Program-made: the position numbers and the translations under genes
Notes under the pieces: generated by a model
The model's database searches: none
What the model was told of the DNA's origin: nothing
Seen by the model: only the letters and a program-made list of their open reading frames with translations
Part shown: positions 8,834 to 10,854 of the stretch, piece by piece
How positions within the stretch are numbered: the stretch's first letter is position 1
How the letters are laid out: every line of letters begins with the position of its first letter
From: a virus
Strand: one strand, 5' to 3'
Virus record (IMG/VR): IMGVR_UViG_3300006929_003771
Location: 1-21,578 of that record
Length of the DNA stretch: 21,578 bases

Positions 8834-10186
8834 ATGTATAAGGTAGAAATGACAAGAGGTCGTAAGATACTGTTCCCTATTTCAAACAAAAAGCTTGACA
8901 TGGCCTTAAGAGAAGAAACAGCTATGTTCGTGAAGACTACAAATATGTTTCTAAGAGAGCTTGTCTCTTGGCTTCAAAGATGCGAGTTCGACGTGATAGG
9001 TTTTTCAAGTCATGGAGAACTTTATGTGTCAGACTCTGAATGGTATATCGGTCCGGGAGGAGGATTTCATAAGCCATTCACACACAAAGAAAGAAGCGGA
9101 GAGCTTCTCCCCTTTCCCAAGATCAAAGACAGTCAACTAAAATATCTTTTTTCTTATGTATTCCGTGAGTGCGGTTGTCTTGACTCTCATGCGGCTTGGA
9201 AAGATAACATTTCTGCAAGCGCAATAAACAAACTGAAGGCTGTTGTCAGGAGATTCAAGAAACAAAGAGTGGAAAGTATTGCTGATTACGTAAAACGAAT
9301 GGTTCCCCCTCAAGTGACAAATGGAACTATTGGACACAAGAAGACTCTTATGAAGTACAAAGATGGTGTCATAAAGATGACCCTAGCAAATAGAAATATT
9401 ATTGAAATAAAAGACTTTTCTCTACCACAGAGTATGTATAAACAGATACATAAGGCAGCGTTCGGTGGCAATCTGACTATAAAAAACAAGGCTAATAGTA
9501 AGAATCATTGCTATACAGTTTTGTTTAATTGCGATAAGACTTTTTATGAGCCTAAAAAATGGATAGGTATGGACATAAATAAGTTTGATCCATATTGGGT
9601 AGTGATAGCTGAGAACTCTCCAGATGGATTTGAGGAAATTATAGGAAAGCCCAACCATATAAAAGAGTTGGAAGATAGGATGAAAGAAGTTGATAAAAAG
9701 ATAGGTAATAAAGATAGGAAGTCTATCTCAAACAAACAGAGGACTATTCTAAGAGAAGAGAAATTTAGCATTATTAATCTTTATAATAAGGCTGTGCACA
9801 ATCTTCTATCCGACAACCCTCACGGAGAATCTTTCCTAGACTTTCTGGAAAACAACCAATACGGAGTTGGCTTAGATGGGGTTCAGACAAAAGGATATGC
9901 TTTCGGACAGAGCGCCATAAATCCAATACTTATCAAAGAATGTGAAAAAAGAAGGATTCCTTACTTCTTGACTAAAGCCGCTTACACAACAAGAGACTGC
10001 TACTACTGTGAGGCTAGGAATAAGAGGCCTAAAGGACAAGATCCTTATATATGCGAAAACCCTATATGTGAGAAGTTTGAGTCTGAAGAGATACCTCACG
10101 TTAATGCAGCTAGGAATATAGCAAAAAAAGCAAATGCAGGCTTTCTAGGGTTGGCCAAAAAGCAGAGTATGGTTCACTCTAGTTAA
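8834..10186 (+). CDS. TnpB/Cas12-like RNA-guided protein with altered RuvC site
   Basis: A 450-residue protein in the TnpB/Cas12f size range. The C-terminal half has TnpB order: RuvC-I WIGMDINKFDPYWVVIAE (D247); a helical bridge (about 275-325); RuvC-II YGVGLDGVQTKG (D348, where TnpB has Glu); AYTTRDCYYC (the TSxxCxxC element) with C389/C392 and C407/C412 as zinc ribbon; then EEIPHVNAARNIAKKA, where the canonical DxNAAxNIA aspartate is His (H422). The N-terminal half would hold wedge and REC regions but is too divergent to divide. With RuvC-III altered and RuvC-II conservatively changed, DNA cleavage may be lost. No TnpA is nearby and the gene is tightly packed in an operon, so it looks domesticated. 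A structured RNA follows at once. An active divergent nuclease is not excluded. Confidence 0.78.
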   Translation: MYKVEMTRGRKILFPISNKKLDMALREETAMFVKTTNMFLRELVSWLQRCEFDVIGFSSHGELYVSDSEWYIGPGGGFHKPFTHKERSGELLPFPKIKDSQLKYLFSYVFRECGCLDSHAAWKDNISASAINKLKAVVRRFKKQRVESIADYVKRMVPPQVTNGTIGHKKTLMKYKDGVIKMTLANRNIIEIKDFSLPQSMYKQIHKAAFGGNLTIKNKANSKNHCYTVLFNCDKTFYEPKKWIGMDINKFDPYWVVIAENSPDGFEEIIGKPNHIKELEDRMKEVDKKIGNKDRKSISNKQRTILREEKFSIINLYNKAVHNLLSDNPHGESFLDFLENNQYGVGLDGVQTKGYAFGQSAINPILIKECEKRRIPYFLTKAAYTTRDCYYCEARNKRPKGQDPYICENPICEKFESEEIPHVNAARNIAKKANAGFLGLAKKQSMVHSS

Positions 10187-10193
10187 AACCCTA
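10146..10193 (+). ncRNA. Nested hairpins spanning the TnpB-like stop codon
   Basis: UAGGGUU (10146-10152) is perfectly complementary to AACCCUA (10187-10193), giving a 7-bp outer stem. Inside it AGAGU (10164-10168) pairs with ACUCU (10176-10180) around a 7-nt loop. The stop codon (10184-10186) lies within the outer hairpin. Canonical TnpB guide RNAs begin inside the 3' end of the tnpB reading frame and continue past its stop, so this folding may be the 5' part of such an RNA. Simple mRNA 3'-end structure is the alternative. Confidence 0.4.
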
Positions 10194-10204
10194 CGGATAG
10201 ATAA

Positions 10205-10289
10205 AGAACCAGCCTTTCTACTGTCGGGCCTATACAGTCAAGTGGGCGACCAGCTTGAACTAAGGCAGTACGGTAACCTAAATGGTCGC
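10205..10289 (+). ncRNA. Structured RNA motif, copy B, downstream of the TnpB-like gene
   Basis: Blocks in order: CUUUC (10214-10218), helix strand UACUG (10219-10223), UCGG (10224-10227), inner helix CAAG (10239-10242) with CUUG (10254-10257), AACUAAGG (10258-10265), helix strand CAGUA (10266-10270), CGGUAA (10271-10276). Copy A has the same blocks with a covaried helix. Copy B also has a possible pseudoknot: loop bases GCGACCA (10246-10252) match UGGUCGC (10283-10289) over 7 bp. In addition, ACUGU (10220-10224) could instead pair with ACAGU (10234-10238), which excludes the main helix, so a two-state fold is conceivable. No open reading frame of note covers this 122-base gap. Candidate roles are TnpB omega RNA or leader of the following gene. 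Confidence 0.6.
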
Positions 10290-10308
10290 TTTTATAAGAG
10301 GATATGTA

Positions 10309-10854
10309 ATGATAAAGCTAGACTTCACACAAGAGATGATAGATAGAGCTAGGGACAAAGCACAGGCTTTAGGCTCAATAAACAACTCAATCCTAAGAGG
10401 AGGAGGTAATATAGCTGGCTACTTAGGAGAAGAGGCTTTAGCACCTTATGTTGGAGCGCAGATTGTCAGCAATAATAGAGGTCTTGATAAATACAACCAT
10501 GATCTTTTGCTAGAATGTGGTAATAGGCTTGAGGTAAAAACCAAAAGAAGAACCGTTTCTCCAAAACCTCATTATGATGTGTCTATAGCTGAAACTAGCC
10601 GTCATCAAAAGCCAGACCTATATGCCTTTATAAGTCTAGAGTTTGAAAGAGCTACCAAGAGTCACCCTAAAAAATACTATGGTTTAAGAAACATATGGCT
10701 GTGCGGATTTATGGGGTCTTTTGAGTATTGGGAAAGGGCTTCTCTCTGGGAAAGTGGAAAAATAGACAAAAGCAACAGCTTCAAGACACATGTTAACATG
10801 TATAATTTACCTATAAGAGAATTGTATGACTCCGTTTGGGAATTAATAGAATGA
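10309..10854 (+). CDS. PD-(D/E)XK-like small nuclease candidate
   Basis: A 181-residue protein, started at ATG 10309 because AAGAGGA lies about 7 bases upstream; the upstream ATG 10282 would run through the structured RNA. A core PD-(D/E)XK signature is visible: helix IAGYLGEEALAPYVGA (E41), NHDLLLECGNRLEVKTKRR (D65, then E75-V-K77), and a later SIAETSRHQKPDLYAFISL strand with Gln. The C-terminal WLCGFMGSFEYWERA region resembles restriction-enzyme-like folds that handle a bound base. The role could be a resolvase, a host-DNA nuclease or a homing enzyme. It overlaps the polymerase gene as ATGA. Like the VSR-like gene at 2965 it is preceded by a copy of the same structured RNA, the only two places where this RNA was seen. 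Confidence 0.6.
   Translation: MIKLDFTQEMIDRARDKAQALGSINNSILRGGGNIAGYLGEEALAPYVGAQIVSNNRGLDKYNHDLLLECGNRLEVKTKRRTVSPKPHYDVSIAETSRHQKPDLYAFISLEFERATKSHPKKYYGLRNIWLCGFMGSFEYWERASLWESGKIDKSNSFKTHVNMYNLPIRELYDSVWELIE

Follow-up and report, generated by a model that had tools for sequence, protein, structure and literature searches.

Structured RNA units with a hypervariable internal hexamer accompany a TnpB-family gene in a phage genome

Does a TnpB-like gene carried by a phage have an RNA partner of its own and, if so, in which part of that RNA would its specificity lie? The question is raised by the IMG/VR virus record IMGVR_UViG_3300006929_003771, whose 21,578 bases are the window analyzed here and which encodes a TnpB/Cas12f-like protein of 450 amino acids at 8834–10186 (this gene, the RNA units and the genes flanking them are all on the plus strand). 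The original prediction, made from the letters alone, had placed a guide RNA across and behind the stop codon of this gene, with a guide of 16–20 nt starting at 10277 or 10290. The underlying observation was confirmed and extended, the system being larger than first described, and the guide-RNA idea was partly supported, in kind and not in detail: a structured RNA is tied to the TnpB-family gene, and the long guide found no support.

The proposed 7-bp stem with an inner hairpin was found over the stop codon. TAGGGTT (10146–10152) pairs with AACCCTA (10187–10193) to form helix P1, which encloses both hairpin P2 (AGAGT, 10164–10168, with ACTCT, 10176–10180) and the stop codon TAA at 10184–10186. 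TGGTTC in the inner loop (10170–10175) and GAACCA (10206–10211) had been taken as a lead-in to the next motif; instead, they form a pseudoknot that closes a separate unit, and two complete units therefore follow the TnpB-like gene. The first, B1 (10139–10211), lies across the stop codon and also contains helix P0 (10139–10142/10153–10156). The second, B2 (10212–10289), starts directly after B1 and is composed of P0 (10212–10215/10226–10229), P1 (10219–10225/10264–10270), P2 (10236–10242/10254–10261, with a bulged A10259) and a pseudoknot; the latter, which had been suggested to follow the stem together with a conserved motif copy, is a perfect 7-bp arm of GCGACCA (10246–10252) and TGGTCGC (10283–10289). 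A third unit, A (2889–2957), stands alone before a vsr/homing-endonuclease-like gene, with P1 at 2896–2902/2935–2941 and a pseudoknot at 2920–2923/2954–2957. The common plan is a P0 that crosses P1, a P2 hairpin within P1, a six-base linker (N6), the motif (C/T)AA(A), and a strand complementary to the P2 loop.

Covariation proves the pairing of these units. Class 2 units (A, B1 and B2 of the window and of three relatives) were counted apart from those of classes 1 and 3. For 17 pairs in eight distinct class 2 sequences, P0, P1 and the pseudoknot were paired in 99.2% of cells, compared to 74.1% in shuffles and 32–44% in slid controls, and both sides had changed in 13 of the 17 pairs (8.4 in shuffles, with 0 of 500 as high). 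In 27 class 1/3 units from more distant phages, 92.3% of cells were paired (66.6% in shuffles) and 21 of 24 pairs had changed on both sides (0 of 500 shuffles), with support for all four helices; in this set the class 3 rows weigh against P0 and part of P1, A6 was built from selected units, and the alignments of model R1 lean towards the A6 structure. The compensatory changes fit a single-stranded fold with crossing helices, and thereby speak against the idea that a mobile element or recombinase uses the units as DNA sites, with N6 as a crossover or coupling sequence. Such sites would agree with the scattering of units and with the insertion that the TnpB-like gene and its units form (see below). 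Nevertheless, as read by eye, the N6 sequences to either side of a unit do not duplicate each other, no TnpA, serine recombinase or other transposase was found among the window's open reading frames (ORFs) scanned, which were part of the total, and we regard the DNA-site idea as hardly plausible.

Generic searches were less informative than covariation. Because the helices cross, the minimum free energy fold of the whole stretch 10146–10309 was not significant (z = −0.18 against shuffles), the folding program being unable to form pseudoknots. A descriptor scan gave scores of 18 for B1 and 19 for B2, with a maximum of 16 in 28 kb of shuffled sequence. Across all loci, scores of at least 17 were reached 153 times on the plus strand and 37 times on the minus strand; shuffles also reached them (55 in 862 kb, one strand), and the descriptor was therefore used solely for finding candidates. 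None of 4227 Rfam models matched the window at gathering score, and in nine related loci (E up to 5) only tRNAs did. An exact motif scan of viral contigs matched six stretches, L005 and L008 among them resembling chance matches, and an exact class 3 scan matched five, among them L260, a chance match in which the hairpin is absent.

The genomic placement of the units ties them to the gene. The TnpB-like gene and units B1 and B2 entered their location, site B, together. Their insertion extends over approximately 8830–10308, judged against the empty site GAAGT/ATGATAAA of relatives, and is absent from 23 of the 23 relatives listed, in which the PD-(D/E)XK nuclease gene (7796–8833 in the window, the left flank) runs straight into the counterpart of the function-unassigned gene at 10309–10854 (the right flank). 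The gene with B1 and B2 occupies site B in the window, L002, L003, L004 and G039 (L210). A second group of phages has a TnpB-like gene (about 25% identity) at site A, immediately upstream of the vsr-like gene (2965–3381 in the window, the right flank of this site), with units upstream and downstream. Unit A, which has no TnpB-like gene beside it, persists in L004 and L105, where its changes are compensatory, and coexists with TnpB at site B in four of four long records. At site A of L029, L116, L119 and L130, a different hairpin-like stretch (CGAGTT ... AACTCG) without the unit layout was seen. In other phages, related units lie upstream of TnpB-like genes, downstream of them, across their stop codons (as also in L088, L092, L098, L101 and L210) or scattered, and the same layout recurs, read by eye, in the distant members L205, L208 and L209. 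One class 3 unit behind a TnpB-like gene (L245:3695–3772, minus strand; G054) seems to have lost the 3′ strand of P1 and the linker, as a decayed copy.

Two models were employed to follow this association across records, many of which were fragments. Model R1 (class 1/3; 60 records) matched 15 of 15 class 1/3 carriers of a TnpB-like gene, 0 of 8 carriers of other classes and 1 of 37 non-carriers, this sole exception being a 7.5-kb fragment. Model R2 (class 2; 32 records) matched each of the four class 2 carriers three times, as expected by construction, since units from all four had gone into it (from G039, unit A only). The informative part of the R2 result is its absence elsewhere: there were no matches in seven carriers of other classes or in 20 non-carriers, the phages in which, by the original prediction's own account, contrary evidence was to be sought, and one match in a 9-kb fragment (G040), which shows a class 2 unit but, within its length, no TnpB-like gene. 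The placements also bear on the idea that each pseudoknot is a cis-regulatory leader governing translation of the gene that follows. Units are often found just before a ribosome-binding site, and the pseudoknot strand GAGG of unit A overlaps one. However, units also occur in tandem, across TnpB stop codons and, when scattered, before unrelated genes, the same sites in TnpB-negative relatives have no units, and the variability of N6 described below would be left unexplained; we consider such leaders quite improbable.

The protein alone matches TnpB/Cas12f models weakly (NCBIfam guided_TnpB, 20.3 bits, E = 2.8e-4, below the curated cut-off of 100 bits), and its identity is clear from the family profile and from the fold. 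guided_TnpB matched six of six family members (best E = 1.5e-18), and the family profile matched Cas12f (E = 1.1e-10). A Foldseek search with the predicted structure (predicted local distance difference test score 65 overall, 80–90 in most of the RuvC part) returned Cas12f at E = 3.8e-10 and TnpB (8h1j) at E = 1.5e-7, and all 33 PDB matches at E ≤ 0.001 were Cas12f, TnpB or other Cas12 proteins; with Cas12f and TnpB the predicted structure has a RuvC and zinc-ribbon fold in common. The canonical RuvC triad of TnpB is D-E-D, with Glu as the second residue. The window protein has D247 (RuvC-I), D348 (RuvC-II) and H422 (RuvC-III) instead; Asp occupies the second position in 18 of 18 members and His, Gln or Asp the third, where the third residue was aligned to the Cas12f Asp and the second was judged from the motif. 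As the acid triad is altered to D-D-H, binding without cleavage is plausible for this protein, and cleavage is uncertain. No match to it was found among INPHARED phages and plasmids, and no relative was confirmed in bacterial genomes with a limited set of search patterns.

If the units are partner RNAs of this protein, one model would be a conventional omega RNA, whose scaffold stops near 10276 or 10290, with a guide of 16–20 nt behind it. The location across and downstream of the stop codon agrees with this, and B1 overlaps the 3′ end of the tnpB-like gene in the manner of an OMEGA RNA. In contrast, no 3′-terminal guide of about 16–20 nt is apparent: the pseudoknot strand ends at 10289, the following bases (10290–10308) are the ribosome-binding region of the next gene, ahead of its start codon, and a long 3′ guide is therefore unsupported. 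In addition, TAAA and the pseudoknot strand after N6 are held by pairing with compensatory changes, and in tandem arrays the next unit begins directly after. CGGUAA, put forward as the scaffold end, is not conserved, since a relative 89% identical has CGAGAA. The two suggested guide stretches indeed have no match elsewhere in the window. We regard a conventional omega RNA as very improbable. A type V CRISPR repeat-spacer array was not encountered either, the units standing in tandem without spacers of full guide length.

The variable part of the units is internal and six bases long. N6 lies between P1 and the pseudoknot strand, before the conserved (C/T)AA, and reads GATAGA in B1 (10196–10201; GAAAGA in L003, ATAGAA in L004, ATAACA in L210), GTAACC in B2 (10273–10278; AGAATC in L004, TAATTC in L210) and GTAATA in A (2944–2949; GAATTA in L004, ACAACT in L105). 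It is hypervariable with sharp borders. In a comparison of 86 pairs of class 1/3 units whose identity outside N6 was 80% or more, the mean difference per site was 0.70 in N6, 0.135 elsewhere and 0.00 in the columns directly flanking it. After removal of 6 of 50 aligned matches (duplicates, or truncated or gapped in N6), the remaining 44 units had 42 distinct hexamers, and one phage (G056/G057) has eight scattered, similar class 3 units with eight different hexamers. Recurring hexamers were TTATCT, twice in G004, and CATACA, TAGAGA and TATACA in different units; the two G004 units (L225, 4332–4405 and 6332–6410, minus strand) share P1 as well as TTATCT, as if copied. Copies in the distant members L205, L207, L208 and L209, read by eye, differ over six bases in the corresponding position. 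In L207, the TnpB-like ORF is followed by a tandem pair of copies, about 175 nt long, that both end in a terminator-like hairpin and differ, among other places, in the six-base block AAGATC versus GTTGCT.

Differences in N6 were compared to those at fourfold sites of the neighboring TnpB-like gene, with units that are non-independent and hexamers read by eye. They amounted to 16/24 versus 10/118 in L098/L100 (p = 4e-9), 12/12 versus 6/122 in L099/L101 (p = 4e-13), 26/30 versus 43/122 in L088/L097 (p = 3e-7) and 16/30 versus 33/110 in L096/L097. N6 thus diverged approximately 8 and 20 times as much as fourfold sites in the close pairs L098/L100 and L099/L101, respectively. This excess, together with a length of six bases in nearly all units and an invariant flanking CAAA in the compared pairs, argues against N6 being a mere free spacer or mutational hot spot in RNAs that would serve as partner or processing RNAs of the TnpB-like protein and hold their specificity elsewhere. 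In favor of such a spacer, variation peaks at N6 and the P2 bulge, as it may where nucleotides are unpaired, and the target search reported below was negative, but we judge this reading unlikely. The bulged base (A13 column 59) has a difference of 0.66 in class 1/3 units, nearly as variable as the hexamer, and is A in class 2 units where checked. The pattern in N6 suggests a very short, swappable address.

Several results weigh against reading N6 as an address. In the window's own comparisons, the differences in N6 and at fourfold sites were 10/18 versus 38/128 with L004 (p = 0.03) and 1/18 versus 0/150 with L003 (p = 0.11). Near-identical records (L092/L094) keep the same hexamers and thus give no indication of a rapidly acting mutator. 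No target tracking the hexamers was found, the aligned parts of three phages yielding only the units themselves, and nothing clear emerged as a flank resembling a target-adjacent motif in 578 tests and in a further 188 to 513 tests per group. Own hexamers were slightly rare in own contigs (1048 versus 1198 expected; 0 of 300 permutations), also after four more phages were added (13 in total; 1567 versus 1749 expected, ratio 0.896; 0 of 500 permutations). However, the four added phages alone were not significant (75 of 500 permutations) and two larger contributors showed no depletion (G014, 1.05; G004, an excess of 1.26), which leaves self-avoidance weak. A hexamer alone is also weakly specific.

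With a constant frame, a shared protein and only the hexamer changing, the simplest reading is that of partner RNAs with short variable addresses. We therefore moderately favor the view that this region supplies the RNA of a TnpB-derived, RNA-guided system carried by the phage, in which N6 would be the variable specificity of each unit. The units would be the partner RNAs of the TnpB-like protein, and N6, between P1 and the pseudoknot, would recognize nucleic acid as a guide reduced to a seed-sized hexamer. Solo units such as A could add specificities in trans for the same protein. Because the RuvC triad is D-D-H, the complex would probably bind and thereby silence its targets, which most likely belong to competing phages or the host.

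Known systems resemble this arrangement in part. With the general features of TnpB/OMEGA of IS200/IS605 and IS607, the locus shares the RuvC and zinc-ribbon fold, an RNA across the stop codon and a pseudoknotted scaffold. It differs in having several units per gene, including upstream and scattered ones, an internal variable hexamer in place of a 3′ guide from flanking DNA, a RuvC-III His, and no transposase among the ORFs scanned. The family is a TnpB relative that falls outside the conventional OMEGA definition by its lack of a 3′ guide, of a visible transposase and of an intact triad. TldR is a nuclease-dead TnpB, and phage-encoded TldR represses with guides down to 6 nt (PMC13418256). Degenerate RuvC, phage carriage and a 6-nt guide or seed that suffices for repression are points of likeness, and the altered triad of the window protein is consistent with TldR-like repression without cleavage; TldR guides, however, aim at a known host gene (flagellin), whereas here we find many pseudoknot-closed units, hypervariable hexamers and a negative target search. 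VIPR, a phage-encoded RAMP protein with vrRNAs, is reported to act against competing phages (PMC13142463). It likewise has several RNAs of about 100 nt up- and downstream of its genes, a pseudoknot, and hypervariable letters in a constant RNA frame. Its protein fold is unrelated and the vrRNA code consists of 9–16 gapped dinucleotides, in contrast to one hexamer, perhaps with one bulged base, here; the window has a RuvC/TnpB-like protein in place of a RAMP protein, and its units lack GGY/NN repeats. Cas12m, also a compact Cas12 with altered RuvC triads (H-D-D, N-D-D), binds double-stranded DNA without cutting it and has CRISPR arrays with full spacers, which are absent here (PMC11013384).

The window also carries replication genes, encoding a RecA-like protein, DnaB, primase, dNMP kinase, the PD-(D/E)XK nuclease and a DNA polymerase III alpha split into two ORFs (10857–12728 and 13504–15141; region 10857–15141). 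A small zinc-ribbon-like ORF and an exonuclease gene lie between the two polymerase ORFs, and L004 has ORFs of equal lengths and order across this region. A small sigma-70-like factor (Sigma70_r2 and r4) is encoded at 15168–15614.

To our knowledge, the guides of TnpB and Cas12 described so far match DNA without interruption and sit at one end of the RNA. We found no report of a TnpB-hexamer RNA system of the present kind in a literature search that lay mostly outside subscription journals. If true, a TnpB relative whose pseudoknot-closed RNAs confine their variation to an internal hexamer would encode specificity differently, in an independent parallel to VIPR. The hexamer idea could be tested by a six-base swap, and some 50 natural hexamers are available for learning the code. 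More tentatively, this may be a phage-specific TnpB-derived lineage that uses several RNA units at once, with the internal hexamer, perhaps joined by the equally variable bulged base of P2 into a non-contiguous seven-letter code, as the whole guide, for re-addressable binding in phage–phage or phage–host conflict: a TnpB counterpart of VIPR.
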